Shown: piece by piece, positions 44,847 to 63,691 of the stretch
Position numbering within the stretch: position 1 is the first letter of the stretch
Layout of the letters: the number at the start of each line of letters is the position of its first letter
Assembly (NCBI GenBank): GCA_036490475.1
Contig: DASXDT010000006.1
Location: forward strand, 248,001 to 312,000
Direction of reading: 5' to 3'
Length of the DNA: 64,000 nucleotides
Origin: Candidatus Tumulicola sp.
GTDB lineage: Bacteria; Vulcanimicrobiota; Vulcanimicrobiia; Vulcanimicrobiales; Vulcanimicrobiaceae
Program-made: the position numbers and the translations under genes
Notes under the pieces: model-generated
What the model was told of the DNA's origin: nothing
Databases searched by the model: none
Seen by the model: only the letters and a program-made list of their open reading frames with translations

Positions 44847-46200
44847 CACGATTCTGACCGTCGACGGTTACAACGCGTCGTTGAACGTTGAGCGTGGCCA
44901 TCTGATTGTACGCGATGGGTTCACACAAGGTGACCGGCGTGAGATTCGCTTTCCACGCGGCCGCTGTAGAGTGAACCGGATCGTGGTCCGTGCCCCAGGC
45001 GGGACGGTCACAATGGACGCGATCAGGTGGTGCGCCGATATGGGCATCGCACTTTCGTTCATGGACTCGGACAGCCGCCTCCTGAACTGTATGGTTCCGG
45101 ACGCCCCGCACGACGGTCCAGTGAAACGTGCCCAGGCAATTTCCGCCGTCACTGACGATGCGCCGCACCTGGCACGGTATCTCCTCGGGAAGAAGATGGA
45201 CTCGCAGATTCATGCCATGGAACGAGACTTTCCGCGTCTCGGAATAGGAACAGTCTCGGGGAATTCCGCGAGTACCGCGCAAGTCCACGCTTGCAAAGCG
45301 GGACTTTCGAAGGCGACAACGCTCGTAGACTTCCTGGGACTGGAAGGGCGTGCTGCGCAGTTCTATTGGGACGTGCTGGTCGAGACGCCGCTTCCGTGGA
45401 GACCGTGGGCTTTGTCTCGGATTCCGGCCCATTGGGCCGCGATCTCGCCGCGAACTTCCGGACGCCGCGACAGGGTTCGAGACGCTACGGACCCGTTCAA
45501 CGCCGTACTCAACTATGCGTATACATTGCTAGAGGTCGAGACTCGGATCGCCTGCGAGGCTGTTGGCCTGGATCCAGACCTGGGACTGATCCACATTGAC
45601 GACCGACTTCGAGAGTCGTTCATTTACGATCTGCTGGAACCGTTGCGAGCAAAAGCCGATGTCTGGGCTCTGGAACTATTGCGGAAAGAGACGATGCGAC
45701 CGGTGATGTTCCATGAGCTGCGAGATGGCATCGTGCGCTTAGATCCTGACCTCGCCGGTCTTCTCGCGAAGTCGCTGATGCCGCGCTTCCGGAGCGCTGC
45801 GCTGGATCTCTCTAGCGACTATGCAAAGCAGCTACGTCGGATCACAGTACAGCGGCGATTGCTACGTGAGGCACCGAAGCCGATTGAGCAGCGTCGCGAC
45901 ATGTGCGAGAACTCGCGCTGCGGATACTGCAAAGAACGGTTACCGCGAAAGCGGTTAAAATACTGCGGTCGTACCTGCTATCTGAAGTACAGCACTGAAG
46001 TTGCCAGACCTATAGAGAAGGCGCATGCGCGACTTGCGGAGCTACGGGCTTCTGGGTTAAGCCCAGGGCATGGAGGCGAAGCGGCGAAGCGGCGCGGCTC
46101 TGCCCTCTCTGAGAATAATAGACTTGGGATTACCGGGAGGCGAGCTCGGCCGGTGGGCGAGAATGCGTCGATACGTTCAAAAAGGCCCACGCAAAAATAG
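44839..46200 (+). CDS. cas1: Cas1-family integrase (casposase-like) with C-terminal zinc finger
   Basis: 453 residues from the ATG at 44839. The N-terminal beta domain (TILTVDGYNASLNVERGHL, then GGTVTMDAIRWCADMGIALS) and the helical catalytic domain are those of Cas1. The metal ligands align as Glu169 (GLEGRAAQFYW), His252 (DLGLIHIDD) and Asp264 (FIYDLLEPLR). After residue 355 comes a non-Cas1 tail: a C-x2-C...C-x3-C zinc finger (Cys361, 364, 376, 380) and a basic end (LSPGHGGEAAKRRG). No Cas2 or CRISPR array accompanies it. By family knowledge it should catalyse DNA integration; casposases often have an extra C-terminal DNA-binding domain. Confidence 0.87.
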   Translation: MTDTILTVDGYNASLNVERGHLIVRDGFTQGDRREIRFPRGRCRVNRIVVRAPGGTVTMDAIRWCADMGIALSFMDSDSRLLNCMVPDAPHDGPVKRAQAISAVTDDAPHLARYLLGKKMDSQIHAMERDFPRLGIGTVSGNSASTAQVHACKAGLSKATTLVDFLGLEGRAAQFYWDVLVETPLPWRPWALSRIPAHWAAISPRTSGRRDRVRDATDPFNAVLNYAYTLLEVETRIACEAVGLDPDLGLIHIDDRLRESFIYDLLEPLRAKADVWALELLRKETMRPVMFHELRDGIVRLDPDLAGLLAKSLMPRFRSAALDLSSDYAKQLRRITVQRRLLREAPKPIEQRRDMCENSRCGYCKERLPRKRLKYCGRTCYLKYSTEVARPIEKAHARLAELRASGLSPGHGGEAAKRRGSALSENNRLGITGRRARPVGENASIRSKRPTQK

Positions 46201-46332
46201 CCCGATGAGGCGTCGAGCTCTCGCTCGTCAATCGTCGTGCCGGGTGGAGCGCGAACTTAGTCTCGGAGGGTAGCCCTACGATTGAACGAATCCTTTTGGT
46301 GGCATGAAAACGTTATGGATGAGGAACCACCC

Positions 46333-46584
46333 ATGACCACAGCACTCGCTTCTCCCGCAAGTCCGCCTGCTCTCGACCCCGCCTACGCCGAATCGATCAC
46401 TCAGCGACTCAGCGATCTTGGGGTGAAGCCCGTCGGAATAGTCAATCGGCAGCTCGTTCTACGCATCGAGGATACCGGGAGTGTAAACGCGCTCGGCCCG
46501 GACCGTTTCGTTGAAACGCTGCTGGATCGATTGAGAAGTGAGCAGCGGCTTTGGGAAAGCATTGATTCAATCAACTTTACCTAA
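46333..46584 (+). CDS. Small hypothetical protein
   Basis: 83 residues from the ATG at 46333 (GAGGA upstream); the frame is open from 46282. Ala/Pro-rich start, then PAYAESITQRLSDLGVKPVG, IVNRQLVLRIEDTGSVNALG and an amphipathic end. No family recognised. First of four overlapping plus-strand genes directly after module 1, so it could be cargo of that module. Confidence 0.5.
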   Translation: MTTALASPASPPALDPAYAESITQRLSDLGVKPVGIVNRQLVLRIEDTGSVNALGPDRFVETLLDRLRSEQRLWESIDSINFT

Positions 46585-47374
46585 ATCGTCCGCTCCGCGG
46601 TTGCCGAGGGTTGCCGTGATTCTAACGAGCGCGTGCTACGCCGCGCTCGTTTTTTCTATCTGCGCTTTCGCATTTTGGCTTCCCGAACACCCGCCGTTTT
46701 TTCGCTGTCTCTTCGCCCAGGCGGAGTGCTCCGCCGCACTCGCAACCTGGGCGCTCGTCGCAGTTAGCACCGTAGCATTCCTGGCCGCATACTATGCGGC
46801 TCTAAAAGCCTCGGAGGCCTTCTTGGTGTCTGCTCAAGCGTTGGAAGTCTCGCAGAACGCTTTTGACCTTGAAAGCCGAGCAATTCTTGGCCAGTCGTTA
46901 TGCGATCATAACGACAATCAAAAACCGCGCGTCACATTGTACGTGGACACTCAAGCGCGAACGGTTGAGTATGCAGCGCCGACCGTTTTAGACGACAAGG
47001 ACTATTTCTCGATCCACTACGATTTTCTAAGCCTAGGTCGCACCCCGCTTGAGCAGGTATTCGCTACCGTGGAAATTTTCCCGACAGCCGCGGAATCATT
47101 TAAGTCGGAAATATTAGTTGGAAACCTGACATCACAAAAAGATGCGCACATAGAGCTTCGTATCAAGCGGGTTCTAAACCCACCGCAGATAGAGTGGCAT
47201 TCAGTAGCGCGCGATACGCGAGGCGAATTGGCGTATCACCCGGTACCGCGGATCGCTGTGCAAGTCGTCATTGATAAGAATTCGGTCGCTGACATTAAGT
47301 ACTTTCCCGTGTTGGCGCCGCCCGATGAACAGATCTCACAAAAGCAAGTAGACCCGGCGGATAAGAGTGCCTGA
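46538..47374 (+). CDS. Membrane protein of unknown function
   Basis: 278 residues with two transmembrane helices near the N-terminus (VAVILTSACYAALVFSICAF and TWALVAVSTVAFLAAYYAAL) and a cytoplasmic or periplasmic domain of about 180 residues with beta pattern (KPRVTLYVDTQARTVEYAAP). GTG start overlapping the preceding gene by 47 bp; a later start is possible. It overlaps the next gene by 8 bp. The layout, two helices plus a soluble domain, is common in unassigned defence cassettes, but nothing specific is recognised. Confidence 0.6.
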   Translation: MSSGFGKALIQSTLPKSSAPRLPRVAVILTSACYAALVFSICAFAFWLPEHPPFFRCLFAQAECSAALATWALVAVSTVAFLAAYYAALKASEAFLVSAQALEVSQNAFDLESRAILGQSLCDHNDNQKPRVTLYVDTQARTVEYAAPTVLDDKDYFSIHYDFLSLGRTPLEQVFATVEIFPTAAESFKSEILVGNLTSQKDAHIELRIKRVLNPPQIEWHSVARDTRGELAYHPVPRIAVQVVIDKNSVADIKYFPVLAPPDEQISQKQVDPADKSA

Positions 47375-47657
47375 TCAACCAAAGTCGCCTCAAGACTACA
47401 GACTCGACAGCTACCTCTGTTGGCCAAAAACTTGGTTCTGGCGGGGAGTCTTGGTACTGGTGCCGCTCGCGCTCGCGTGGATCTCGTACCATCAGGGAGC
47501 CGAGCTAGGGAATAATTCTTGCCCCACGGAGGATGCGGCTAGTTACAGCAGACAAAACTGCCAAACGATTCTTCGTAAGAACTTCGAGCACCATTTAAAC
47601 AGTATCGATTACACCGTGCGGAGCATATTGAAAAAGGAACGATTCCGTGGCCATTAG
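47367..47657 (+). CDS. Single-pass membrane protein
   Basis: 96 residues, GTG start, with one transmembrane segment (WRGVLVLVPLALAWISYHQG) and a soluble C-terminal half containing two cysteines (NNSCPTEDAASYSRQNCQTI). It overlaps both neighbours (8 and 11 bp). Function unknown. Confidence 0.55.
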   Translation: MPDQPKSPQDYRLDSYLCWPKTWFWRGVLVLVPLALAWISYHQGAELGNNSCPTEDAASYSRQNCQTILRKNFEHHLNSIDYTVRSILKKERFRGH

Positions 47658-47991
47658 CGTTTACGCGTCAGCGTCGGCAACGCCCGAGAGTCTACTTGAA
47701 AGCCTCAAACAGAAGGTTCGCGTGGGCGATATTGAGACCTGGAGTATCGACTCGGACGGCGACTTTACTCACACACCGCAACAATGGAAGGACCAAGCTT
47801 ACTTGCGTCCGCGTATCGTGAATGGCGTCCTGCAATTCTTCTTAATCGGACGAAAAAGCGTTAAAATGTCCAAGGAAGTGTACGGAGTCTATCATGGACG
47901 CTTCTCCGAAATGCTTTTAACACACTTTGACACTTCGATGCGCGAACTGAAACTTTCGTCCCTGCGGGCACCTGGCGACGTATTTACATAG
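47647..47991 (+). CDS. Small soluble hypothetical protein
   Basis: 114 residues, GTG start overlapping the previous gene by 11 bp. The fold appears alpha/beta (ISVYASASATPESLLESLKQ, then YLRPRIVNGVLQFFLIGRKS and a final amphipathic helix MLLTHFDTSMRELK). Family unknown. It ends the four-gene cassette, with a terminator-like hairpin 24 bp downstream. Confidence 0.55.
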   Translation: MAISVYASASATPESLLESLKQKVRVGDIETWSIDSDGDFTHTPQQWKDQAYLRPRIVNGVLQFFLIGRKSVKMSKEVYGVYHGRFSEMLLTHFDTSMRELKLSSLRAPGDVFT

Positions 47992-48355
47992 AATATGGAG
48001 CCCAGTAATCATTGAGGCCAGAAACTGGCCTTTGGTGTTTCTCGCGCGGCCACGCAGATAGCGTTGCTCATGAGTTTATCCACTGCAGTGGCCGACCAAC
48101 TCAGGGAAACAGCGAACGCTCCTAGCCGACTGCGTCTAACAAGCTGGGCATCGCCGGAGCCGAAATAGACCCCAAGAGAGCTTTATCACGTGGGTATCCG
48201 ATTGCGAGATCTAGCATGCCTGGGAAAGAAGGGGGCGGCCTCCCTTTTGGCGAGTTCACATACACGCTTCATCGTCTGACCTATCTTGGCGGTTTGAAAA
48301 TCCAATGGACGTACAAGATTATCGCCGGAGCGTGAAGGGGAAATATACTTAACTC
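47992..48355. other. Intergenic region
   Basis: These 364 bp have no convincing gene. They hold the hairpin at 48015-48031 near the left edge and an AT-rich stretch before 48356 that probably contains the promoter of the OLD-like gene (GGGGAAATATACTTAACTC). Nothing else was recognised. Confidence 0.5.
48015..48035 (+). terminator. Terminator-like hairpin
   Basis: AGGCCAG / CTGGCCT pair with an AAA loop, followed by a short T-containing stretch (TTTGGTGTTT). It ends the 46333-47991 cassette. Confidence 0.55.
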
Positions 48356-50098
48356 ATGCCATGCGTGATTGAAACGCTGTCATTTAGCGACGGTTCCGAT
48401 GTAAAACTGTCCAGATTGACGATTATCGTAGGCCCTAATAATGGAGGCAAGAGCAGAGCCCTTCGCGACATCGAAGCGGTTGTCACAAATAACATTCATC
48501 ATCGCCCGCAGGTTGTGACGGGAGCAAGGCTCATTCTGCCAAGTACCCTTGAGGAGGCCGTGAAACTAAGTGGCTTTCGATATACCGAAAAAGGGCTTGA
48601 CGGTTTTAGAGTGGAGGGCCTTGCATCATCTATGTCGGAGCCCTTCGCCCGAGATAATCTCTCAAAAAAGGCGGTGGTCGATATTTTCTCGGCTGCAGCA
48701 TCCGCGGCACAACGAACGCAGCAGATACTCAGTATTTTTGGCCAAGGATTCGTTATGCGTCTCGGAACCGAGGAACGTCTGGCAATATCGAGCCTGAAGC
48801 AAGTCGCCCCGGCGGGAGCCCCCACTTCGCTAATAGATCTTTTGTTTCGTGGAGGTGCGAACGCGGAGCGATCACTTGCCTCCGCAATATTGCAAGCATT
48901 TCCAAGCTCTTATTTAAGGCTTGATTATAGCACTCAGTCGCGCGTCACTCTACGCGTCGGTGATTCGGACATCTTAACAGTAAGCATCGATCCTCGCGAA
49001 CAAGTCCTAGACTTCGAGCCATTTTCGATGTTAGAGTCGCAAGGAGACGGGCTCAGGAGCTACGCGGCACTTTGCTTAGGCCTCGATATTGCGAAACGTC
49101 CGGTGACACTGATAGATGAGCCTGAGACTTTCTTACACCCGCCGCAAATCCAGGCTCTGGGCAGATATATCCATGAATCTGGAAGTCAACAGATTATAAT
49201 CTCAACACACAGCGTCGACCTAGTCCAAAGCATAGCTCATGCCTCGTCTGAAGCGACAATTATTCGTCTCACCCGAACGGAGAACGTAAATCACGCACGA
49301 GTTGTCTCGCCAAGCAGATTAGAAGATTTAATTTCAGACCCGTTGGTCTCATCCGCTCGTTGCCTCGATGCGATGTTCTACCGCGGGGCTGTAATTACAG
49401 AGGGCGACTCGGATAGACTGCTCTACCAACGAGTGTATGATCGTCAGTTTAGAGGTGATGATATTCATTTCCTAAATGCTCAAAGCAAGCAAACTATTCA
49501 CAAAATAGCACGCGCTTACAACGAAATGGGAGTTCCTTGCGCTGCCATAGTGGATTTCGACATATTAAACGACGCTCGAACCTTCACCGAGTTACTGAAT
49601 GCCTTGAGTATTGAGGGCTCTTCAAGAGAAAAAGCGATTGCTTTGCGAGCACGGATTGCTGGAGATATAGAGGGGCCCGGAAAGCTTGAAGAAAGGCGCG
49701 CCAGCTATGTCAAGCAAGTTGAAACGACCCAAAGAAGAATCGACTCAACGACTGATGTTCAAGCACAAATGCAAGACCTCTCCGACCTGGGTGATAAACT
49801 ACGCTTTGCAAACGATCCCTGGCTTGACGCAAAGCGCAATGGCGCCGGCGCACTACAGGATGATTCGAGCGTTGCTTTTTTCGAGCTGTGTGACATTGTC
49901 GAGCGTTCAGGTTTGTTCATCGTTCCAGTAGGCGAACTCGAGGGTTGGCTCCATGACGCGGTGAGTACATCGCGTAAGAACAAGGCAAACTGGCTAGCAG
50001 CCTCGCTGAAAGCACTTCCCCATCTTTTAACGGAGCCGACAGATGTCTGGGCTTTCATTGCGCGCGTTCGCGAATATTTGATCGGTCAGAGTAATTAG
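48356..50098 (+). CDS. OLD-family ATPase/TOPRIM nuclease
   Basis: 580 residues. The N-terminal ABC/SMC-type ATPase has Walker A VGPNNGGKS (residues 25-33), Walker B TLIDEPETFLHPPQ (about 250-263) and the H-loop ISTHSVD (about 282). The C-terminal TOPRIM domain shows AVITEGDSDRLLY (Glu at about 349) and a downstream VDFDILND (about 400). OLD nucleases act in anti-phage defence, alone or with a helicase as in Gabija; no helicase is adjacent. Base composition is lower in GC than in the chromosomal half. Convergent with the SIR2 gene. Confidence 0.85.
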   Translation: MPCVIETLSFSDGSDVKLSRLTIIVGPNNGGKSRALRDIEAVVTNNIHHRPQVVTGARLILPSTLEEAVKLSGFRYTEKGLDGFRVEGLASSMSEPFARDNLSKKAVVDIFSAAASAAQRTQQILSIFGQGFVMRLGTEERLAISSLKQVAPAGAPTSLIDLLFRGGANAERSLASAILQAFPSSYLRLDYSTQSRVTLRVGDSDILTVSIDPREQVLDFEPFSMLESQGDGLRSYAALCLGLDIAKRPVTLIDEPETFLHPPQIQALGRYIHESGSQQIIISTHSVDLVQSIAHASSEATIIRLTRTENVNHARVVSPSRLEDLISDPLVSSARCLDAMFYRGAVITEGDSDRLLYQRVYDRQFRGDDIHFLNAQSKQTIHKIARAYNEMGVPCAAIVDFDILNDARTFTELLNALSIEGSSREKAIALRARIAGDIEGPGKLEERRASYVKQVETTQRRIDSTTDVQAQMQDLSDLGDKLRFANDPWLDAKRNGAGALQDDSSVAFFELCDIVERSGLFIVPVGELEGWLHDAVSTSRKNKANWLAASLKALPHLLTEPTDVWAFIARVREYLIGQSN

Positions 50099-50197
50099 AA
50101 GGTGGATGACACTCTAGAAGAGGCAGGTGAGCAGTCCAGGCCACTAACTTATGTTTTCGGGGACACGGTGAGCGCCGGAATAGCGAAGGTGAAGCGG

Positions 50198-50275
50198 ACC
50201 GGAAGTTTGAAGCCACTTTGTAATATCCCATGGGTTTCGCAGAGGGATATTACAAAGTGACTTCAAACTTCCGGT
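50198..50275. repeat. Fold-back palindrome made of clostripain-gene sequence
   Basis: Left arm 50198-50229 (starts ACCGGAAGTTTGAAGCC) pairs with 50244-50275 over 32 bp with one mismatch; the loop is 14 bases. The loop plus right arm, 50230-50275, equals 34964-35009 of the truncated peptidase gene with one mismatch. The left arm is the exact reverse complement of 34978-35009. It lies between two convergent genes and could also act as a terminator, but its origin is clearly gene-derived. Confidence 0.85.
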
Positions 50276-50301
50276 TTCTACTTGATCCTCGACACGCAGT
50301 T

Positions 50302-52446
50302 CTAATCATCCTCGCTCCCATCGAGGATATCTTTCGCATACTCTAGCGACTCCTCAGCGGTAAGCATGCCGTCTCCTTCGGATTTCGCAGTAGCATCTGA
50401 ACGATACGCCTTTGCGCTTTCAATATCTCCACGCTCCTCTTGCAATTTAGCTAGCGTTGCAAGGAGCTCGACAGCATTCTCGAGTGGAAGTTTCGGATTT
50501 GATCCGACCAAGCGAGAAGCAGTAGTTAGTATAAGAAAAGCGGCGTCAAGATTTCCCTCCTTCCAACAAATCAAACTTATATGCGAAGCGACGGTATAAA
50601 TCATCTCGATTGCAGTTCTCGACAGATCGCCGACAGATAGATCCGCCGCCTCATTGAACAGCTTAATTGCCTCCACTATATTGATTTTTGCGTCGTACGA
50701 GGCTTCAGCCATCATCAGGGTTACCATTTTGGAACGAACCTCGGTTCGTTCATCCTGCGCATAGCGTCGGATGATGTCGATTGCACTCTCTTCCGATGTG
50801 AAATCCATCGATAACCGCGACCATCGCACTTCGGCGTCTAGTCTAAGTGCGACATCGATGGGACGATCAGACGTTTCTAGCGCAGCCGCAACTTGTGCGT
50901 ACAAAGTCCGGGCCTGCTCCGATTCGTCATGCTGTTCGAACCAGTAACCTAGGCCGACTTGAGCCAAGAAAACAAAATACGAGGTCTGTTCGAAGGCTCT
51001 GTAGCGATTTATAAGCTCTTCCAGAAGATCTCTTGTCCTTGCGCTCTGCCCAGCAGCAACGATCTCCGAAATTAATGCGGACGCACCTACTTCAAGAAGG
51101 GTAGCGTCGTTGTGTATTTCAAATAGTTGCCAGCAAAATTGTTCGATTAACTCGTTGGCCCGTCGTTGGTCTTCCTTCTGTAGATGCCTGCCCAGTCGTT
51201 GCAAGCCGACGACAAGGAACTTCAATTCATCCGCCTTGAGCAGTGGTATTCTCGCTACGAGCGAATTTGCGGCCTGAAGAGCCAACTTTTCATTCAGTTC
51301 CAGTAAATGCTTTCGAAAGACGTTTAAATACGATTCAGGCGAATCGCTCAGAAGCAGTTGACGAGCTCGCTGGACTTGATCGACAACATGTCTGAAATCG
51401 TAAATGTCCGCCGTACGGTTGTCATTCGTCGGAGGCATCACATCGCTAAACTTCTTCGCCAACGATCCAAGCGGGTCTAGAACGAAACTAGGTAGGGGAG
51501 CTTTCGTCACTTTTATTAGTTCTTGAAGGACCTCCGCTGCGTCAAGCGATTCGGAAACATCAACAATTCGCTGATCGACCGGATCCGTTAATGTAACCTT
51601 CGTAAAGTTGGCTTGGGGATTGTCGGTGTTGATAAGGCTCTCATCGGATGAAACGAAAGTGATGTCTTCACTGTTGCGAACATCAAGTGGTAGTAACCGG
51701 ATCTGTTGCCGATTGTGAAGAAACCAATAAGCAGTAAAGCGAAGTGGATCTTTAAGTCTTCTTCGAAAGGCCGTCATGAAGACGTCGTTTGCCCAGCCCG
51801 AGTAGCCGATAATAATGGGTGCCGTTTGGGCTAGCCATCGATCGAGCAGTGACATCATCGATGACGATGTTGCTCTGTCTTCCCGCCTGCGTTCTTGTAC
51901 GCGACCCTTCAAATTAGCGCAGTCATAGAACCGGAACGAGCCGTGAATGTGAACTATTTGTGTTTCCTCCACGTTAACCTGAATTCTTTCGGTCGTTCTA
52001 GGGTGGTCGCACAACGTATAACGCTGCTCGAAAAGATCGAGGGATCGCGTCAATAGATCATCAAAATTGGTTGTAAATGCAGTATTTGCCACTTTGCCAG
52101 CACAAAGCAGATGGGCAAGACGCAAGTTAGCTGGAGTGATATACGCGGAGTCCACTAGCGTAGTTAAGTAGGGTTTCAACAGCGATGGGTCCGGGAAGGC
52201 CGAGTTGAGCCAGTATGAGTAGGTGTCAAGGGCGTTTCCAGACGGCGCTGCTGGTTCCGGGTAACGCTCGTCGGATGCCCGCAGATCCGCGTATTTCTGT
52301 TCACACTGCTTGACGATTTCAGACGCAGTCGGGATTGACGGGAACGACAGTCCAGCGCCCACCATGAAAAAGTAAGGTGTCCAGCGGGACTCAGCTAGCG
52401 TGCGCTGGATGTTCGCCATCGCGTGGGGTAAACTGATTACTCGCAA
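50302..52446 (-). CDS. SIR2-domain NADase-like protein with TPR-like C-terminus
   Basis: 714 residues, TTG start (ATG at 52419 is an alternative). The SIR2 fold is shown by FFMVGAGLSFPSIPTASEIV (GAG at 30-32), FTTNFDDLL (Asn127, Asp129), IVHIHGSFRF (His168) and IIIGYSGWANDVFM. The C-terminal 350 residues are helical repeats, TPR-like, as in sensor parts of defence proteins. Bacterial SIR2 proteins of this kind deplete NAD during phage infection; that role is inferred here. No dedicated partner is adjacent besides the convergent OLD-like gene. Confidence 0.83.
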   Translation of the reverse strand: MRVISLPHAMANIQRTLAESRWTPYFFMVGAGLSFPSIPTASEIVKQCEQKYADLRASDERYPEPAAPSGNALDTYSYWLNSAFPDPSLLKPYLTTLVDSAYITPANLRLAHLLCAGKVANTAFTTNFDDLLTRSLDLFEQRYTLCDHPRTTERIQVNVEETQIVHIHGSFRFYDCANLKGRVQERRREDRATSSSMMSLLDRWLAQTAPIIIGYSGWANDVFMTAFRRRLKDPLRFTAYWFLHNRQQIRLLPLDVRNSEDITFVSSDESLINTDNPQANFTKVTLTDPVDQRIVDVSESLDAAEVLQELIKVTKAPLPSFVLDPLGSLAKKFSDVMPPTNDNRTADIYDFRHVVDQVQRARQLLLSDSPESYLNVFRKHLLELNEKLALQAANSLVARIPLLKADELKFLVVGLQRLGRHLQKEDQRRANELIEQFCWQLFEIHNDATLLEVGASALISEIVAAGQSARTRDLLEELINRYRAFEQTSYFVFLAQVGLGYWFEQHDESEQARTLYAQVAAALETSDRPIDVALRLDAEVRWSRLSMDFTSEESAIDIIRRYAQDERTEVRSKMVTLMMAEASYDAKINIVEAIKLFNEAADLSVGDLSRTAIEMIYTVASHISLICWKEGNLDAAFLILTTASRLVGSNPKLPLENAVELLATLAKLQEERGDIESAKAYRSDATAKSEGDGMLTAEESLEYAKDILDGSEDD

Positions 52447-53572: not shown

Positions 53573-54802
53573 TTAGAACTCTACATTGATGGAGGTAGCG
53601 CAGGTTCGGACGGCGTCTAGGTCGACAGCGTTTGCCATCGCAGGGCTACGATAGTTGGATCGGAGCACTCTGAAAGACTCGGCAATCAATCCACGCGCGG
53701 TACTGTACGTTTTCGAATCTGAATGAATATTGGGAGAACTGCACAAATCAAGCGCGGTTGTTATTTCATTTCGCTCCGCATTGGACCAGTCTCCGCTAAG
53801 TCGAGCCTGTGCGATCCTCAGCACTTGCTGACCCATCAACTCGGAAGTCTCGACGATGACGTGCGCAGTATCGTTGCAAGGCGACACCCCTTGGCAGTTT
53901 TGATATAAGGACATGACGCAAGTATTAGATAATTCGACGGCCTGACGAGCGTCGGAACTCGCTGTAGGATAGTCATTCCCATTCAACTCGGCGTATGAAC
54001 GCTGCAGGGTGGTTACTATCGTGTTGCTGGATCCAGGACCACAGTGCGAGTCAATGAGCGACGCCACTGAGCCGGGAGTCACGGAAACCGTTGTTCGGGT
54101 ACCGGTGGAACCTGATGTGAAGCTGACGTTTGCCTTAGCATTATCAAGAAATGTCTGCAAAGCAGGAAGCGATAAGGCTATGTTGTTTTGAAGCGCTCCC
54201 GTCGTCCCGGTGTTGACCGCAGTAACCATGCCATATACTACCCCTGTTTGCATATCGAACAAAGGACTGCCACTATTGCCGTGATCGGTCTGAGCGTCGT
54301 ATTCAATAAACGACCCGTCACCGGCCACTGAGCTAACCGATCCTTCATGGAACGATGGCTGTAGGCTGTTGAGATCGTTGGCTAGAGAAAACTGAAACGC
54401 TGGGAATCCCGCGATTCCGATTTGAGTTCCGACTGGGGGCGCCGTTGCACTAAGCGTCAGCGGATGGCACGATGAATGATAAACCGCAAGGACAACCGCA
54501 TCCAATGTGGCCGTTCGTACAACCTGTCCATGCTGCAAGCTATCTCGATCAGAAAGCATTATCACTCGAGGGAATGAATCGGTACCTACGACATGTCGAT
54601 TGGTTAATAAATAGGCCGTGTCGTCGTGGCTTCCGATGCAGAACGCAGTCCCCGCTCCCACGTGCTTGCCGTCTTTCGAAATTACCAAAGCCAGGGAGGG
54701 TTCTATTGACGCGAACGTTTCAGTAGCCGCCGACCCGATAATCGGCTCAGACGCGAACGAGCATACAACGATGACGCATATGAATGCGTAAATGATGCGC
54801 AT
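53573..54802 (-). CDS. Secreted trypsin-like (S1C) serine protease
   Basis: 409 residues with a signal peptide (IIYAFICVIVVCSFAS). The triad is visible: His in AYLLTNRHVVG, Asp in ATLDAVVLAV and Ser in DAQTDHGNSGSPLFD. No PDZ domain follows. Instead there is a C-terminal region of about 190 residues with several cysteines (SHCGPGSS, NTCVMSLYQNCQGVSPCND). It probably acts outside the cytoplasm. First gene of the operon ending at 52562. Confidence 0.83.
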   Translation of the reverse strand: MRIIYAFICVIVVCSFASEPIIGSAATETFASIEPSLALVISKDGKHVGAGTAFCIGSHDDTAYLLTNRHVVGTDSFPRVIMLSDRDSLQHGQVVRTATLDAVVLAVYHSSCHPLTLSATAPPVGTQIGIAGFPAFQFSLANDLNSLQPSFHEGSVSSVAGDGSFIEYDAQTDHGNSGSPLFDMQTGVVYGMVTAVNTGTTGALQNNIALSLPALQTFLDNAKANVSFTSGSTGTRTTVSVTPGSVASLIDSHCGPGSSNTIVTTLQRSYAELNGNDYPTASSDARQAVELSNTCVMSLYQNCQGVSPCNDTAHVIVETSELMGQQVLRIAQARLSGDWSNAERNEITTALDLCSSPNIHSDSKTYSTARGLIAESFRVLRSNYRSPAMANAVDLDAVRTCATSINVEF

Positions 54803-54979: not shown

Positions 54980-57895
54980 TCATGCAGACCTTGGTGCCCG
55001 GACAGCCGGAAATCCGTCCGTGGCGGAAAGAGCAACTTGGCGTCGCCGTGCGGATGCTCTGATCTTTCGCGCCGTTGCGTCACGCGGCTGAGAGGCGCTC
55101 TTTACGATGCTTCGCCACGCGCGTTCCGAAATCGCGATCTCAGCCGCCACCTCGGCTTGCGGAAACCTAGAGAGCGACACGATGCATTCATCGAGATCGT
55201 CGCGCTCGTATTCGACGGGAAGGATTGACACGATACTCGACCCTCGATCTTCGTCGAGGCGATCCACTTCCTTCCCGATGTGCCAAACAGGCTCCGACTG
55301 AATGGCAAGCCGCGACAGCAGTCCGATGGTAAGCCCCCCCGCGACATTGCCGTGCTGATCGGCGGCTTTAGCTTCGGGATGCTCCTGATACTTTTTGATA
55401 TACTCGTCTAATCGCATCACACTAACGGTGCCCGCATGCCCCGTTCCGAACCAATCGAGTTTAACGCGCTTCCCCGTTCTAAAATCGATCCATTGCAGCT
55501 TCATTGACGCCTGGGCGTCGTCTTCGCGTGGCGCGATGGGCAATACATCCTTGCGCCCTACTTGCGTTTCAGGCGTCACCGTCTGTACGAATCCGAATGG
55601 TTTAACGGATTGGTCGTAAGAACGGTCTTTGTTGAATGCAGCCATGCGTTTGTAGATCGCCGGTTGGTTGATTGGAAACTTGCGACGCATCGGAAGATCG
55701 AAGTTGATCGATGCTTCGGACTCCCTTCGTTGTGCATCACTTACGTTCAAATTATCCATCAGGATCTTGAGCCAGACATTTCGCGCGAATGCCTCCGTTC
55801 GTTCGGTTGGCGTTCGACCGATGATCGCTCCCAGGGCGCTTTCCGATGCTTTCACGATCTCGATACGCCGATTGGGCAACCACTTGAATAGGACGTACCG
55901 TTTGGCTGAGATGGCAAAGCATCGAAGGTTCGGATGCTCCGTATGCTCCTTCTTGAGCAGATTGGGGACAATCGAACGATGGTACGGATTCAATGCATTA
56001 AACTGCTCTATGATCTCATCGACATCCGATTCACTTATCGATGGAATGCCTTTGGGGCAATCGGGTCCACCATTGATGGCAAGGCTATCGGTATCGCAGA
56101 AGGTGAAGCTGCCGCCCCGCTTGGCGACCTCCGATTCGAGCAAAGCCAGCATAAGACGAGCGCCGCCCGTCACTAGCGTTGCAATGATCGGATTGAAGTA
56201 GGCGCCGGGGCGTTCGTCATGGATATTAAGCGACGGGTAATTCGTGTCCGAAAAGACGTTCCCCGGCGCGTCGGTCTTCCCGGTTTTGGTCGGCTGCACG
56301 TTGATCTCCGCGAAGATTCCGTACGCACCACTGTTTGCGAATATTTTTAAGCCCAGTTCTAACGGCTTGAGGGTCTTGTCGGCTTCGCTCTCGCTCTTTG
56401 CTTTTTGACGTTCCTCCACGATCGTCTTGAAGAAAGGGAGGTTCGAATGCAACGGGATTAACCCGCGAAAGAGCGCCACCTTCGACTTGCGCCGTCCTTT
56501 CGGCACAACACGAACGGCTTTGAGAATGGTCGGCGCTGAACCACCTAACAGCATTCCCGCCAAAACGTCGGCCAATGTATACCAACGCGGCTCTTTGGTC
56601 TGGATCGGTGACACGGCAATCGTATACGGTTCGTTATCCTCTGCCCGCATCCGAATGGGTAGGATCGCGCCGTGCGGATCGAGCTGTACCAAACAGTTGA
56701 GTTTCAGCCACAGCTTCGGATCGAAGAGTGAGACGTAGCGGCTACCGCTAGCCATTTGCGTCACAAGGGCCGTCACGTCGTCCGTCGCGTCTTCTAGGTC
56801 GATCTCCGGCGCCGTGAGCACCCTGTCGAGCCGCTGAAGGCAGAAGATCGTTGGATACATGGACACGAAGTCCAGCAGCCAGACTGGCACGTCCAACTTA
56901 CGGACCCGCACATCCGCTCGTCCACCGAAATAAGCGGAAAGGAACCATCCAAGATACTCGCGAGAAAAGCGCGGCTGCTTTTCCAAGAGCGGCGCGATGC
57001 CCAGCTGGCGGAGATACTCCTTTGCCACGCTGGCCGTCGAACTTAAACGACCCATGTACCTCGAATGCTTCGGTTTCTTTCGCTCGTTGGCAAACGTTGC
57101 AAACGGATGGTGGATGTATTCCGTTCGTAGGGCCTTGTAGAGCGCCCAGGTCGCTCGTACATCTTGACGACCATAGGTCAGTGATGCGCGCGTGACTGAT
57201 CCGAGTTCCGGAGCCTCCATCTTGCGAGTATATGCACGGTACGCTTTCCCGGCGCTCTTGAGTGTATTCCGCTTCCCGTTAAAAGCCCGCGCAACGGCGC
57301 TGAGATCGCAGAAGCGGCCATTGAAAAACGGCTGTTCCCAATCGTATAGCTTGCGCTTAGGTGTGAAACCGATGAATGCAGCGCTGCCCGTGGTTGATTC
57401 GATGCGAAGATCGTGCCACGTCAACCGACGGCTCAACGCAAAGGTAAACTTGCGCCGATTGCGCCCGGAACCGCATCGAGCCAAATATGCGATCCGGCTG
57501 AGGTCGAATGGGAGATTGAAGCCGACGCAGACGGCACCCCGAAGGTAGACTTCCGGATAGAAGATCTGTTCAACGAACTGCTCGCGACTGTACATCTTGA
57601 GCCCGCATCGCGCGGCGTATTCTGTGACGCATTCCATTTCGGATTGATCGAGCACGTCCGAGACGATCAATGCCTCTTCGGCCAATCCATCGTGAATGTA
57701 TAGTCGAAAGAAGCCAAACAGAAGGCGCTGTGCTGTGTCGGTCGTTGTTTCCGTATCAAATACCAGGACGCGATCACCATAGGGCGTCTTGCGCCATCCA
57801 GGGCCTTTCTTGGCTTCCTTACGCTCGGGGCGTTCCGAGTGCGGCTCTACCCAGGCGCGCACTGCGCTTTGCCGAGTCACCCATGGCGGCGTCAT
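54980..57895 (-). CDS. Family B DNA polymerase with 3'-5' exonuclease
   Basis: 971 residues from the ATG at 57895, which overlaps the HNH gene by 4 bp as in copy 1; a longer frame to 58084 lies inside that gene. All motifs are intact: FDTET (exo I), GFNLPFD (exo II), YGRQD (exo III), DFVSMYPTIF (A), KIFANSGAYG (B), FCDTDS (C) and SAKRY. The C-terminus is about 17 residues longer than in copy 1 and diverges there (VALSATDGFPAVRAPRSA). Probably active. Confidence 0.88.
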   Translation of the reverse strand: MTPPWVTRQSAVRAWVEPHSERPERKEAKKGPGWRKTPYGDRVLVFDTETTTDTAQRLLFGFFRLYIHDGLAEEALIVSDVLDQSEMECVTEYAARCGLKMYSREQFVEQIFYPEVYLRGAVCVGFNLPFDLSRIAYLARCGSGRNRRKFTFALSRRLTWHDLRIESTTGSAAFIGFTPKRKLYDWEQPFFNGRFCDLSAVARAFNGKRNTLKSAGKAYRAYTRKMEAPELGSVTRASLTYGRQDVRATWALYKALRTEYIHHPFATFANERKKPKHSRYMGRLSSTASVAKEYLRQLGIAPLLEKQPRFSREYLGWFLSAYFGGRADVRVRKLDVPVWLLDFVSMYPTIFCLQRLDRVLTAPEIDLEDATDDVTALVTQMASGSRYVSLFDPKLWLKLNCLVQLDPHGAILPIRMRAEDNEPYTIAVSPIQTKEPRWYTLADVLAGMLLGGSAPTILKAVRVVPKGRRKSKVALFRGLIPLHSNLPFFKTIVEERQKAKSESEADKTLKPLELGLKIFANSGAYGIFAEINVQPTKTGKTDAPGNVFSDTNYPSLNIHDERPGAYFNPIIATLVTGGARLMLALLESEVAKRGGSFTFCDTDSLAINGGPDCPKGIPSISESDVDEIIEQFNALNPYHRSIVPNLLKKEHTEHPNLRCFAISAKRYVLFKWLPNRRIEIVKASESALGAIIGRTPTERTEAFARNVWLKILMDNLNVSDAQRRESEASINFDLPMRRKFPINQPAIYKRMAAFNKDRSYDQSVKPFGFVQTVTPETQVGRKDVLPIAPREDDAQASMKLQWIDFRTGKRVKLDWFGTGHAGTVSVMRLDEYIKKYQEHPEAKAADQHGNVAGGLTIGLLSRLAIQSEPVWHIGKEVDRLDEDRGSSIVSILPVEYERDDLDECIVSLSRFPQAEVAAEIAISERAWRSIVKSASQPRDATARKIRASARRRQVALSATDGFPAVRAPRSA

Positions 57896-58557
57896 GACGC
57901 GCTCCCTGTGGACGCCGGTAGCTCCAGCACCGGGGTCGCAGGAAGCAGCGCCCCATAATCCGAGCCGTACGTGGAAGCTAGGTGTGCGTCGGCTCGCAGG
58001 TTCCACAACGCCCACAGGATCAGACCTGCGCTGAAGACACCAAGAATCACCGCGCGCTCCGCCTGCTCGTTGGCGCCGTCCCACACGGCAATCATGCCGA
58101 TGATCGCGGCAGCGCCGAACTCGAATACTGCCTGCAGTTCAAGTGCACGCCTGTTTCGGTCGCGCAGACGCAGTTGAGCCATCGGGCCCACCTCGGCGCT
58201 TTGCGACTTGATCGCGTGATGATTGGAACACAGAGGAGCCAGAAGCATGCTGTTGGCGGCGTTCTCCACATGGTCCAGTTCCAGGATCCGGATCTCCGGC
58301 TCACCGCACACCACGCACGATGGTTTGAAGTAACCAGCCTTTTCGAACCGCCGCATTTTTTGCTTGCGGCTCTTCTCCGTCACAGTCTTTGCACGTCCCT
58401 TACAGTTGCGGCACACAATCGTCTCGCAGTCTTTGGGCGGCTGGCACAGCATGCCGATGTCAGCATTGCCGCACGTCACGCATTGTGGGTCATCGACGCC
58501 GAAGCGCTGCTCCTTGCGGATTCGTGCGTCTTCCAGTGCGGTTGAGTATTCGATCAT
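57892..58557 (-). CDS. HNH endonuclease with zinc ribbon and two membrane segments
   Basis: 221 residues, the same length as in copy 1. The zinc ribbon (CVTCG, VCRNCKGR), the HNH core (CVVCGEPEIRILELDHVENA, then LCSNHH) and both helices (FEFGAAAIIGMIAVW, AVILGVFSAGLILWALW) are kept. Conservation of the membrane segments in both copies argues that membrane attachment matters. Overlaps polB and the HTH gene by 4 bp each. Confidence 0.85.
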   Translation of the reverse strand: MIEYSTALEDARIRKEQRFGVDDPQCVTCGNADIGMLCQPPKDCETIVCRNCKGRAKTVTEKSRKQKMRRFEKAGYFKPSCVVCGEPEIRILELDHVENAANSMLLAPLCSNHHAIKSQSAEVGPMAQLRLRDRNRRALELQAVFEFGAAAIIGMIAVWDGANEQAERAVILGVFSAGLILWALWNLRADAHLASTYGSDYGALLPATPVLELPASTGSAS

Positions 58558-59048
58558 GCCGCCGCCTCTGGCGCGTAGATTTCAGCGAACGAAACCGCTC
58601 CGGCGCGGCCCAGGCGATCCAGCACCTTTGGATCCGTGACGAACTCGAACGTCTCACCCTTGCTCCGAATGTGCTTGCCGCGAAAGCGTTCCAGCGCTGA
58701 GGTATCGCCATTGCGGTAGTAATCCCGCACCGCGTTGTTAAAGTCGCTCACCCGCGACGCCGTTCGAGAGCTGCGCGTGGTGATCGTCGCTTCGCCCTGG
58801 GCCGTCAGCATTCGTAAGCGCCGCACCAGATGATCGGTGCGCTTCACGTCGAGCCGTCCAGAGCGGACCTCCAGCGCTGCCCCAGCATGGCGCTTCACTG
58901 TTTTGAGGGTGGTGCCCACGAGTTTGGCCGCTTTCGTCATGGAGAGGGCTGGGTTGCGCCGCTTCATGCTAATCGCGTCGAGCGCCCGGCGCCTGGCATC
59001 CTCTTTGAAGAATATCGCTCGCAGATCGAGCACTTGGTTCTTGGGCAT
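58554..59048 (-). CDS. HTH DNA-binding protein of the module
   Basis: 164 residues, TAGGAGG upstream of the ATG. It is almost identical to the copy 1 protein after the first few residues (MTKAAKLVGTTLKTVKRHAG; VSDFNNAVRDYYRNGDTSAL). First gene of the minus-strand operon. Confidence 0.78.
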   Translation of the reverse strand: MPKNQVLDLRAIFFKEDARRRALDAISMKRRNPALSMTKAAKLVGTTLKTVKRHAGAALEVRSGRLDVKRTDHLVRRLRMLTAQGEATITTRSSRTASRVSDFNNAVRDYYRNGDTSALERFRGKHIRSKGETFEFVTDPKVLDRLGRAGAVSFAEIYAPEAAA

Positions 59049-59155
59049 ATTATCGGGCCTCCTATGGTCCCTGTGATCTTAAAATACCGTGGGCAGAGAC
59101 CGAAAACTCGGCACTTTCGCGCGGAGCCAAAACGGGCGCCGCCGAATACCCATAG
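59049..59155. promoter_or_regulatory. Divergent promoter region, copy 2
   Basis: This 107-bp gap is almost the same length as in copy 1. The 21 bp at 59115-59135 are identical to 43804-43824; the remainder has little similarity apart from the ribosome-binding site of the HTH gene. Confidence 0.5.
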
Positions 59156-60163
59156 ATGGCTTCAGACGTCCGAGTGAGCGAGGCGATTACTCGTCTCCGG
59201 AGCGACGGCTTTCAGATCAGCGGCGACAAGGTGCAGCGCTGGCGTTGCTTTGGGATCACATCATTTCGCAAAAGCCGCGCCAACTATTTTAAGCCTACCG
59301 TCTACCGCAATCTGCAGTATGTGCTTCAGATCGAGCGGCAGTTCGGATTCGAGCGTGACCATGATGGGTTGGCACTCGAACTCGCGTACCGGCAGTTTCC
59401 AGTTGTTCCGTTGGACCGCGTCCACGACGGCGCTCGTAAAGAACTAGCAACCATGTTCAGCGGTCTCAATCGTGAACTGCATAAAATCGACGATTCCGGA
59501 GGGCTAACATTCGCGCCGCGCCGCATTCCGCACGCAGCGCGTAACCTTGTGCGACGATACCTTCCTAACCGAAAAATTCGAGAGAATCCAGCACTTGCGA
59601 ATGGGCGCAATATTCTCGAGAAGATCGTACACCTATGGTTGCGAGTCGCATACGAAAACGAGGTCATCAACGAGGCCGAGCTGCTTCCCATTCTCTATGC
59701 AATGGGCGCGCGAGATCCGGCGGCCGTGCAGGTCGCGATAACGCTCGCTAAAATAGCGGTGCCGGTTGTCCCATTGTTGCGACCCGTCAATCAAGGACCG
59801 CTGTCAGCGCTACTGGATCGACCGTTTGAGGTTGATGAAGTGCGATACACCATCGCCACAATGCGCATCATCTACGGCATGAATGCGCATATGTCAGCAG
59901 CCGGCGTTTCCGTATTCCAGTCGTTTACCCTCGACTATCCAAAAATCGAAAGCGAAGACACCGATCCGATACGTGCAGATGTAGCATTACGAAGCTTGAT
60001 GTATGCTGGCGCAGTATTCCTTGCAAGCATCCCAATGGGAAAGGCGATGATCGATCACGTAGCGGCTGGGAATCCTTACGATCCTTCTGTCCCAATCGCG
60101 ACACTCGTCGCAATGAAGAACGTGATCTTGCCCACGATCTTTGGAGAATCAATAGATGCCTGA
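59156..60163 (+). CDS. MerR-like HTH protein preceding Cas1
   Basis: 335 residues. The N-terminal winged-helix-like part (VSEAITRLRSDGFQISGDKV, then QRWRCFGITSF) and the YRNLQYVLQIERQFGFERDH block match copy 1; beyond residue 100 similarity falls to roughly half. A hydrophobic stretch (AVQVAITLAKIAVPVVPLL) is kept at the same place. Its end overlaps the Cas1 start by 8 bp. Confidence 0.72.
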   Translation: MASDVRVSEAITRLRSDGFQISGDKVQRWRCFGITSFRKSRANYFKPTVYRNLQYVLQIERQFGFERDHDGLALELAYRQFPVVPLDRVHDGARKELATMFSGLNRELHKIDDSGGLTFAPRRIPHAARNLVRRYLPNRKIRENPALANGRNILEKIVHLWLRVAYENEVINEAELLPILYAMGARDPAAVQVAITLAKIAVPVVPLLRPVNQGPLSALLDRPFEVDEVRYTIATMRIIYGMNAHMSAAGVSVFQSFTLDYPKIESEDTDPIRADVALRSLMYAGAVFLASIPMGKAMIDHVAAGNPYDPSVPIATLVAMKNVILPTIFGESIDA

Positions 60164-61475
60164 AACCATCCTCACCGTTGATGGCTACAACGCTTCACTG
60201 CACGTTGAACGTGGCCACTTGGTCGTTCGAGACGGCTTCACTCAAGCGGAGAGGCGCGAGGTACGGTTCCCACGCGGTCGTTGCAAGGTCAACCGCATCG
60301 TGGTTCGGGCACCGGGCGGGACGATCACGATGGATGCCATCAGGTGGTGCGCCGATATGGGGGTCGCGCTGTCGTTCGTGGACTCGGACAGCCGCCTCCT
60401 GAACTGTATGGTTCCCGACGCCTCGCACGATGGTCCAGTGAAACGAGCCCAGGCAGTTTCCGCCGTCACGGACGATGCGCTGCACCTGGCACGGTATCTC
60501 CTCGCGAAGAAGATGGACTCGCAGATCCACGCGATGGAACGGGACTTTCCGCGTCTCGGAATAGGGACAGTCTCGGGGAATTCCGCGAGTACAGCCCAAG
60601 TCCACGGGTGCAAAGCTGCACTTTCGAAGGCGACAACGCTCGTGGACTTCTTGGGACTGGAGGGACGCGCGGCGCAGTTCTATTGGGACGTGCTGGTCGA
60701 GACGCCGCTCCCGTGGCGACCGTGGGCCTTGTCTCGGATTCCGGCCCATTGGGCCGCGATCTCTTCGCGAACTTCCGGACGCCGCGACCGGGTTCGCGAT
60801 GCTACCGATCCGTTCAACGCCGTACTGAACTATGCGTATACGTTGCTGGAAGTCGAGACACGTATCGCGTGCGAGGCTACTGGTCTGGATCCGGACCTCG
60901 GGCTGATCCACATCGATGACCGGCTTCGAGAGTCGTTTATTTACGACGTGCTCGAGCCACTCCGCGCGAACGCCGATGTGTGGGCGTTAGAACTGTTACG
61001 CAAACAAACGATGAGGCCAGAGATGTTCCATGAGCTGCGCGATGGCGTCGTGCGCTTAGATCCTGACCTCGCCGGTCTTCTCGCGAAGTCGCTGATGCCG
61101 CGGTTCCGGAGCGCTGCGCTCGATCTCGCGAACGACTACGCCAGGCAGTTGCGACGGGTCACGATATCGCGGCGCCTCGTTCGCGCGACAGTAAGGCCTG
61201 TAGGGCAGCGACGCAACGATTGGGAGCGTTCCTCGTGCGGATATTGCAAAGGGCCGCTGCCACGAAAAGGTCTGAAGTATTGCGGGCGGGATTGCTACGT
61301 TCGGTACTCCGTCGAGATTGCTAAGCCGATCGAGAAGGCGCAGAAACGTCTTGCTGAGATGCGCGCTTCGGGACTGAATCCTGGTCACGGCGGTGCGGCG
61401 GCAAGGAAGCGAGGAGCCGCGCTGGCCGAGAACAATCGAAAAGGCATTACAGGCAGAAGGACTCGCGCGGTCTAA
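60156..61475 (+). CDS. cas1: Cas1-family integrase (casposase-like) with C-terminal zinc finger
   Basis: 439 residues. It is nearly identical to copy 1 through the catalytic core, including the Glu (GLEGRAAQFYW), His (DLGLIHIDD) and Asp (FIYDVLEPLR) metal ligands. The zinc finger (CGYCK...YCGRDCY) and the tail motif LNPGHGGAAARKRG are also kept, but the final 14 residues of copy 1 are missing. No CRISPR array or Cas2 nearby. Probable integrase of the element. Confidence 0.87.
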   Translation: MPETILTVDGYNASLHVERGHLVVRDGFTQAERREVRFPRGRCKVNRIVVRAPGGTITMDAIRWCADMGVALSFVDSDSRLLNCMVPDASHDGPVKRAQAVSAVTDDALHLARYLLAKKMDSQIHAMERDFPRLGIGTVSGNSASTAQVHGCKAALSKATTLVDFLGLEGRAAQFYWDVLVETPLPWRPWALSRIPAHWAAISSRTSGRRDRVRDATDPFNAVLNYAYTLLEVETRIACEATGLDPDLGLIHIDDRLRESFIYDVLEPLRANADVWALELLRKQTMRPEMFHELRDGVVRLDPDLAGLLAKSLMPRFRSAALDLANDYARQLRRVTISRRLVRATVRPVGQRRNDWERSSCGYCKGPLPRKGLKYCGRDCYVRYSVEIAKPIEKAQKRLAEMRASGLNPGHGGAAARKRGAALAENNRKGITGRRTRAV

Positions 61476-62299: not shown

Positions 62300-63691
62300 A
62301 TGAATCCGGCTAGCGACAAAGTTTACCTTATTCCAGCATTGAGGGCTGCCTCGACGAGTGAACAGGAGCACTCGCTATCGGGTATCACAGTTCTTGGCTT
62401 TAAATCAATCGAGCGTGAACGTACTTTGAGATTCAACAGGCTGACGATATTAGCAGGCGCGAACAGTTCGGGTAAGTCCAGCATTATGCAGCCCCTCCTC
62501 CTGCAAAAGCAAACTGTCGAGGCAGAGTACGATGCTTCACCCTTCGCTCTCGATGGACCGAATGTAAGCTTTGACCGACGAGAACAGTTGCTATCACGGA
62601 ATGCGACCTCGATGCGTATCGGGCTCGAATCCTCATCGGGACGATCCATTGCAGTCGAATACAGGTCAAGCCCCAAAGAAAGCAAAGGCAAAGCCTTTGA
62701 TGTTTGTTGGCAACAATTTAAGGATCTAGACGGAACGTTCACCTTCAGAGAAGGTATGTCGCCAAAAGAGATCGATCAACTCGTCGAGCCTCAAGTTGCG
62801 ACGACTGTTCGCGATCAACTTCGGATAAACCAAACTGTCCCATGGGAGCTCCTCCAGGACCGAAGCTTCCTTAGCATCGGCCTCGGGGTTCGTGGCGTTC
62901 CTCAGAGTTTATATTACTCGAGTCCGGGGCGATTTGTGTTTTGGAATCACCTGACTAATATTATTCACCTACCTGGTCTTCGAACGTCGCCACAACGCAA
63001 CTATCCGGTTGCGAACGTCACCGGGAAATACCGGGGGACCTTTGATAGGTACACAGCTAGTGTGATCGCCCGATGGGAAGATAGCGATTCTGACCGGATA
63101 AAGGCTCTTGCCGGGGATTTACTATGGCTTGGTTTAACGAATGCGATTCGTACTGATTATGTTAGCGACAGCAGCGTCGGTATTCTTGTAGGGAGAACGA
63201 CTCGACCGCGACCGGTACCAAAGAGACGAAGTCACAAGCGTGACTCGGAAGACCTCGTCAATATTGCTGACGTCGGTTTAGGAGTTTCGCAAGTTCTGCC
63301 GGTCCTCGTTGCGCTGATTGCTGCAGTGCGGAATCAAATTGTCTACCTGGAACAACCGGAGATCCACCTCCATCCGCTTGCGCAGCTGCGACTCGCACGA
63401 ATCATCGCAAGGGCCGTTCGAAGTGGCGTAAAAGTCGTAGTTGAAACGCACAGCTCTGTCTTGCTTCGTGGACTACAAACGGAAATAGCTCGCGGCACCA
63501 TCCCGTTCGATGCCGCAAACCTTTATTGGTTCCGCAAACGCGGTACAGCGACACAGATAGATCTAGCCGTTCTCGATGAGCGCGGGTCTTTTGGCGACTG
63601 GCCCTTGAATTTTGGGGACGTCAGATTACAAGCAGATCGGGATTACTTATTAGCAGTGCAAAAGCAATCCGACTCGACCGCATCATCGTAA
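62300..63691 (+). CDS. SMC/OLD-like AAA ATPase (DUF3696-like)
   Basis: 463 residues. Walker A is AGANSSGKSS (residues 52-61), the signature region VGLGVSQVLPVLVAL, Walker B VYLEQPEIHLHP (about 348-359) and the H-loop ETHSSVLL. No TOPRIM domain follows, so it is an ATPase without its own nuclease. The PIN-domain gene starts at the next base after its stop, which suggests an ATPase-nuclease pair as found in several defence systems (inference). Confidence 0.83.
   Translation: MNPASDKVYLIPALRAASTSEQEHSLSGITVLGFKSIERERTLRFNRLTILAGANSSGKSSIMQPLLLQKQTVEAEYDASPFALDGPNVSFDRREQLLSRNATSMRIGLESSSGRSIAVEYRSSPKESKGKAFDVCWQQFKDLDGTFTFREGMSPKEIDQLVEPQVATTVRDQLRINQTVPWELLQDRSFLSIGLGVRGVPQSLYYSSPGRFVFWNHLTNIIHLPGLRTSPQRNYPVANVTGKYRGTFDRYTASVIARWEDSDSDRIKALAGDLLWLGLTNAIRTDYVSDSSVGILVGRTTRPRPVPKRRSHKRDSEDLVNIADVGLGVSQVLPVLVALIAAVRNQIVYLEQPEIHLHPLAQLRLARIIARAVRSGVKVVVETHSSVLLRGLQTEIARGTIPFDAANLYWFRKRGTATQIDLAVLDERGSFGDWPLNFGDVRLQADRDYLLAVQKQSDSTASS

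Follow-up and report, generated by a model that had tools for sequence, protein, structure and literature searches.

Organization of the locus

The window, that is, the whole stretch of 64,000 nucleotides of Candidatus Tumulicola sp. analysed here, carries two abutting casposons of a soil bacterium, designated A and B, which are arranged along the DNA as TSD-A-TSD-B-TSD (TSD, target-site duplication). Casposon A extends over 34978..50229 (15,252 bp) and casposon B over 50244..66072 (15,829 bp); the right end of B lies at 66072 (L007:2072), with the final 2 kb beyond the window end at 64000. In a self-comparison, a 46-bp repeat came up at 34964 and again, as the third copy, at 66041-66086, with a palindrome at 50196-50275 between them; base-by-base reading gave the order TSD-TIR...TIR-TSD-TIR...TIR-TSD (TIR, terminal inverted repeat). 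The three 14-mers, ATGGGTTTCGCAGA, are all identical: copy 1 (34964..34977, plus strand) directly follows the leader GTCGCCAATCAATGTTTGATGGACACG, copy 2 (50230..50243, plus strand) is common to A and B, and copy 3 (66073-66086) directly follows B. The four facing 32-bp TIRs have the sequence GGGATATTACAAAGTGRCTTCAAACTTCCGGT, with AATGG in one copy. The left (34978..35011, plus strand) and right (50196..50229, minus strand) ends of A are identical at 34/34 positions, and those of B (50244..50277, plus strand; 66039-66072, L007:2039-2072) at 32/34. A de novo search across 76 kb for a 14-bp direct repeat combined with an inverted end returned A (14/14 for TSD and 20/20 for TIR) and B (14/14 and 18/20) as the top two matches, with scores of 34 and 32 of 34, the runner-up, unrelated, scoring 26. 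With up to three mismatches allowed, four copies of the TIR were identified in the genome and no others. No tRNA genes were found in the window, and a tRNA target is thus not involved here.

The five-gene blocks at 39715-46200 and 54980-61475 form the cores of A and B, respectively. On the minus strand are located the genes for a family B DNA polymerase (PolB; 39715..42585, 956 aa in A; 54980..57895, 971 aa in B), an HNH-like protein (42582..43247; 57892..58557) and a small HTH-like protein (43244..43738; 58554..59048), followed on the plus strand by the genes for a fifth protein (43845..44846; 59156..60163) and Cas1 (44839..46200; 60156..61475, 439 aa in B). Cas1 matched Pfam Cas_Cas1 in both elements (E 1e-34 and 1e-37), and the best solved relative of the B protein was the M. 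mazei casposase 6OPM (E 1.7e-20), ahead of CRISPR (clustered regularly interspaced short palindromic repeats) Cas1. Catalytic E, H and D residues are retained, and the C-terminus carries a zinc-type Cys4 motif together with a basic tail in which no HTH, the C-terminal trait of family 2 Cas1, is evident by eye; an HTH-like C-terminus is present in the other Vulcanimicrobiota subfamily. By their best solved relative and their catalytic residues, both Cas1 proteins are of the casposase type. PolB has exonuclease motifs and the invariant SMYPT, NSxYG and DTDS motifs, and is related to the PolBs of other bacterial casposons. The B protein matched phrog_1907 DNA polymerase (E 2e-12); no Pfam match, including DNA_pol_B, was obtained for PolB, its AlphaFold model was unusable (predicted local distance difference test, pLDDT, 36), and no relatives were found among viral contigs and plasmids. 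The HNH-like protein matched phage HNH models of phrog (E 2.6e-4, B) and has hydrophobic segments at its C-terminus (A). An HNH protein with two HTH proteins is a trait of family 2 and 3 casposons that A and B share, as judged by the positions and sizes of the genes, the HTH proteins here being named by position and by eye, with no Pfam match. The fifth protein, labelled MerR-like by an earlier sequence-only reading, gave no Pfam match to MerR; it occupies the position of the HTH-HEAT protein of family 2/3 casposons, and its AlphaFold model was all-helical and unusable (pLDDT 47), leaving HEAT repeats unconfirmed.

Both A and B thus combine cas1 and polB within one element with TIRs and a 14-bp TSD, typical casposon TSDs being 14-15 bp. 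Among the open reading frames of A and B searched with Pfam and PADLOC, no Cas2 or effector gene of the CRISPR-Cas kind was found.

Attachment site in a protease gene

The array interrupts a gene for a clostripain/C11-family protease, of which the left part, with DHG and NQCLM motifs, lies at 34445..34977 (plus strand) and the right part at 66073-66759 (L007:2073-2759), both identified by tblastn of the two halves against intact homologues. The intact homologues are about 410-450 aa in length and were matched in 62 of the 78 related genomes, mostly as one open copy; Pfam Peptidase_C11 (clostripain) was matched by four of seven homologues (best E 0.0046), which carry DGDNNLD, DHGGG and NQCLM motifs, and no protein of known structure related to the target protein came out of a profile search. 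The gene is cut mid-way, the insertion point being a few codons past the NQC cysteine, which is presumed to be catalytic. Elements with 14/14 TSDs were identified de novo at the C11 site in G074 (18.7 kb), G004 (18.8 kb) and G018 (6.4 kb), and G025 has there an element of 4.0 kb that lacks cas1. These four all lie at the same nucleotide, after GTYGC[CG]AAYCAATG. The site, uninterrupted in most relatives, is occupied in other genera of Vulcanimicrobiota.

Three insertions (G001 contig 92, G059 and L143) lie outside any recognizable gene copy. On a leader-plus-TSD profile constructed from 29 empty sites, these scored 18-24, each within the top 5e-6 of a background of 200,000 41-mers. Since off-gene insertions still match this profile, the site is apparently recognized as DNA. 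For comparison, the casposase of A. boonei depends on the first two bases of the TSD together with a leader motif located at -14 to -9 (PMC6614799).

Divergence between the two modules

The sequence-only reading had described all five genes as recurring about 9 kb away with the same order, orientation and overlaps, Cas1, PolB and the HTH protein being highly similar, the MerR-like protein much less so, and the flanks unlike. This description was borne out by measurement. The gap between the modules is 8.8 kb, gene order and orientation are the same, and the overlaps (4, 4 and 8 bases) are identical. Amino-acid identity between A and B is 92% for the HTH protein, 86% for Cas1, 82% for the HNH protein, 79% for PolB and 50% for the fifth protein. 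By blastn, the blocks matched at 78-81% in two stretches of 4.4 kb and 1.3 kb, the flanks gave no match, and the cargo is unrelated.

Synonymous divergence (dS) was not uniform, with 0.3 for HTH, 0.8 for HNH, 0.9 for Cas1, 1.2 for PolB and saturation for the fifth gene. The window-wise proportion of synonymous differences (pS) ranged from 0.17 to 0.93, and its variability exceeded that of all 2000 shuffles even without the fastest gene, so that the modules look mosaic in their divergence. Uniform divergence including the flanks, named beforehand as the mark of a simple segmental duplication, was absent. The HTH gene, with 92% identity between A and B and 42-52% to relatives, suggests a later, recent exchange between elements. 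The weak similarity of the MerR-like protein, counted by the sequence-only reading as an argument on the origin of the copies, carries no weight because this is the lowest-identity core gene in every element pair compared (18-31% against L143 and L144). It was also considered as the target selector but is disfavored in this role, with 13-29% identity between most elements, Cas1 being far better conserved.

Phylogeny of Cas1 and PolB

One clade of the Cas1 tree, with a support of 100, unites A, B, L143, L144, G018, G025, G074 and G004, and in the trees A and B are sisters, each the closest known relative of the other, inside a Vulcanimicrobiota clade. In the PolB tree, G004 is located apart from the others, near Acidobacteria-type elements, and its grouping with the others was rejected (approximately unbiased test, p 0.0018). 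The TIR of G004, GGGATAGGAGACAG, is likewise of the second, Acidobacteria type, though the element sits at the C11 site. With its Cas1 in the site clade and its PolB and TIR elsewhere, this one recombinant indicates that target choice tracks Cas1 rather than PolB or the type of TIR. In the genus of the window, an element with the other Cas1 type (G001 contig 24) is located at a tRNA-Ser gene.

Other arrays and the direction of growth

Two further arrays were identified. That of G018 reads leader-TSD-element-TSD followed by the TIR of a second, decayed element with a mutated tip. The array of L143 (Candidatus Eremiobacterota palsa_1517, phylum Vulcanimicrobiota) includes three elements: first comes a decayed end, next an 8.7-kb element that has no cas1, and last the autonomous 14.9-kb element, which is followed by the leader; the TSDs of this array are at contig positions 8662, 17363 and 32303. 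In both arrays the leader-adjacent element is intact and the distal one has a mutated TIR tip, and leader-distal tips are mutated in G018 and G098. Growth of the array at the leader end is plausible from these patterns, two or three arrays being no test of it, and would fit both CRISPR and the M. mazei mini-casposon experiment, in which entry was at the left TSD and the enzyme carried out tandem integration in vivo (PMC10359463).

Origin of the array

Three identical TSDs and nearly identical TIRs, set against dS of about 0.3-1.2 and unrelated cargo, point to two insertions of already diverged elements. It is very probable that A and B are two complete, long-diverged but related casposons, which were inserted separately at one attachment site in a clostripain-family protease gene. 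Direct support is provided by the element ends, the TSDs, the empty sites, the independent insertions at this site in other genera and the Cas1 phylogeny. The preference of the sequence-only reading for independent insertion, or for two elements at a favored site, over a recent tandem duplication was thus upheld, the site being empty in most relatives. As to the process, the enzyme activity is presumed: on the model of the homologous casposases of M. mazei and A. boonei, Cas1 would read about 18-27 bp of upstream leader and the start of the 14-bp target, and join both element ends across a 14-bp stagger, and repair would then duplicate the 14 bp. Because the leader and one TSD copy would remain intact, the site would be reusable. 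PolB is supposed to copy the element, and the HNH and HTH proteins probably help excision or regulation. Some points weigh against separate insertion and its proposed order: no movement of A or B has been observed, an autonomous element in G025 occupies a site without leader similarity, G018 retains a second, intact gene copy on another contig with its occupied copy at a contig end, and the insertion order rests on small signs (identical TIRs in A, two mismatches in B, and the tips in G018 and G098).

The same gene order, orientation and overlaps, together with the sister relationship of A and B, would also be expected if a single casposon had undergone tandem segmental duplication and the two copies had later diverged. 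A shared origin, however, would have scrambled the TSDs in the broken gene, whereas these three are identical without known constraint and the TIRs nearly so at the dS given above, and the cargo on both sides is unrelated; duplication was therefore rejected as hardly credible, its rescue requiring gene conversion that renewed all TSDs and TIRs but spared the genes. Homologous recombination through TSD/TIR homology, by which incoming DNA or a circle with one casposon joined the resident one without a second casposase reaction, could use the 46 bp of shared TSD and TIR, and the gene-wise mosaic divergence suggests that such casposons do recombine. This route is unlikely, because the incoming element must carry the same 14-bp TSD and hence come from the same site in a near-identical host, each element retains a matching end pair, and tandem integration by the enzyme is documented in vivo (PMC10359463). 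Relics of other casposons in the same genome indicate that elements decay here, and A and B could accordingly be a domesticated Cas1-PolB island that has lost mobility; such a state is very unlikely, since the ends are intact, the TSDs exact and the reading frames open, and the attachment site is common to several genera.

Within the preferred reading of two separate insertions, A was probably inserted after B, an order held with moderate confidence. If B had instead joined a resident A at the leader-distal TSD, the resulting structure would be the same; this reverse order is doubtful, since the distal TSD is without the leader that characterized casposases require, the M. mazei mini-casposon went into the left TSD, and the TIR pair of A is identical but that of B is not.

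Cargo genes

The left cargo of A (35673..39672, minus strand) includes genes for a PIN-domain protein (35673-36164), a repeat protein (36209-37438), a PF00144 serine hydrolase (37645-39117) and a BlaI-like repressor (39139-39672), assigned by Pfam. A gene similar in appearance to the hydrolase gene beside the repressor gene (37645-39672) is located at L228:2314-3480, just outside the middle element of the palsa_1517 array. On the right, A carries an OLD-like AAA ATPase with a TOPRIM domain (48356..50098, plus strand; Pfam AAA_21 and OLD-like_TOPRIM; PADLOC Old, E 2e-26). The cargo of B includes a SIR2-domain protein with a TPR-like C-terminus (50302..52446, minus strand; Pfam SIR2_2, E 1e-8; PADLOC SIR2 models, E 1e-15), a trypsin-like peptidase (53573..54802, minus strand; Pfam Trypsin_2, E 2e-19) and an AAA_21 ATPase (62300..63691, plus strand; Pfam; PADLOC NsnB, E 2e-49).

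Elsewhere, a SIR2-HerA pair (E 1e-122 and 8e-155) was identified in L143, a type IIG restriction enzyme in G025, a ThsB-like TIR protein in G001, a match to the 'cll' model in G004 and a STAND-Mrr protein in G074; no defence-like gene was found among the part of the genes scanned in the 6.4-kb G018 element. Nearly every Vulcanimicrobiota element inspected thus seems to carry a different defence-like cassette, the presumed role in defence being deduced from family names. Outside Vulcanimicrobiota, 63 PADLOC models had matches in cargo and four in flanks; as the listed models are redundant and matched one protein each, these counts do not amount to a test of significance and were not taken as support for a general enrichment of defence genes.

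Casposons in other genomes

Scanning of species genomes with PolB identified relatives in Acidobacteria, Actinomycetota, Alphaproteobacteria, Chloroflexi, Gemmatimonadetes and DPANN archaea, most of them with Cas1 close by. Among the PolB-bearing sources examined, 72 also carried Cas1, and TSD/TIR structure was detected at 20 of 72 loci (two look spurious) against 0/72 after shuffling. The loci L148-L222 include casposon candidates in many bacterial phyla, far beyond the few bacterial ones in the literature searched. One end of an Actinomycetes casposon (L177:239-14922) adjoins the 3' end of a transfer-messenger RNA gene (14946-15302), which may be its attachment site. Two Micrarchaeota casposons (L156:4407-14714 and L222:1676-8650) are located at the ends of tRNA-Glu and tRNA-Pro genes, each followed by a TSD and another TIR, indicating tandem arrays in DPANN archaea as well.

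In the same genome as A and B, degraded PolB and Cas1 of other casposons are present at G000:C4:1155-10713 and G000:C6:1735742-1744490; no TIRs were found at these two relics. Apparently non-autonomous elements, with casposon ends and 14-bp TSDs but lacking cas1, polB or both, were identified at L074:131-6535, L228:3677-12363 and L128 (4.0 kb), the first two containing IS3-type transposase-like genes.

Significance and comparison with known systems

Casposons have been put forward as the origin of CRISPR adaptation, but few bacterial examples have been published and little is known of how they are targeted. The locus described here belongs to a natural comparative set, in which one attachment site is available in about 30 sequenced empty versions, is occupied in several genera and holds arrays composed of two to three dissimilar elements. 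The Cas1/PolB recombinant in this set uncouples the choice of target from the type of TIR. Two questions thereby become open to experiment: which features of Cas1 recognize the leader, and whether, as in CRISPR, a casposon array gains its new units at the leader end. We tentatively propose, as a possibility that is far from established, that in Vulcanimicrobiota a casposase reading the conserved DNA of a protease active site repeatedly adds whole elements beside the leader, in leader-polarized arrays at a dedicated site, each with a different defence cassette, so as to form an ordered store of immune systems. If so, a relative of Cas1 would store immune systems in order, as CRISPR stores spacers.

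Bacterial casposons, archaeal tandem casposons, and casposons that carry Sir2-like, OLD and modification genes have already been published (PMC4046053, PMC6563490, PMC9939771), and no paper in the literature searched joined casposons with Eremiobacterota. By this literature, the bacterial lineage with a mid-gene site, the arrays of unlike casposons (their priority as judged from reviews), the Cas1/PolB recombinant and the varied cassettes appear to be new. The core of family 2 casposons, Cas1, PolB, HNH and two HTH proteins, is largely common to family 3 (Krupovic et al. 2014, PMC4046053). These families resemble A and B in gene set, TIRs and TSDs, and the C-terminal zinc motif of Cas1 is as in AceAut-C1, but they differ in the attachment site, which in this Vulcanimicrobiota lineage is its own, mid-gene, shared by two unlike elements and tied to Cas1. 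The tandem casposons of Methanosarcina (PMC10359463) likewise have TIRs starting with GGGATA, a 14-bp TSD and a second element inserted into an existing TSD, but are archaeal and use other targets including tRNA-Leu, whereas A and B are in a coding sequence of a bacterium. NitNF5-C1 and -C2 of Nitrosopumilus adriaticus (PMC6563490), family 1 elements whose PolB is protein-primed, are also two different tandem casposons in one protein-coding gene, one with an OLD nuclease. They probably differ from A and B in family, and the targets published for family 1 are 3'-distal (ef-2), in contrast to the mid-gene position beside a presumed catalytic Cys codon.

Tn7-like transposons (for cargo, PMC8649781) are alike in site-specificity, tandem islands and defence cargo, but their recombinase is unrelated and their target is at the glmS end, outside the coding part. 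Growth of CRISPR arrays by Cas1-Cas2 has in common with the casposon array a Cas1-family integrase, a leader and a repeat that is duplicated at each insertion, but is different in that the casposon repeats are 14 bp, the 'spacers' are whole elements of 6-16 kb, and neither Cas2 nor CRISPR RNA is involved.

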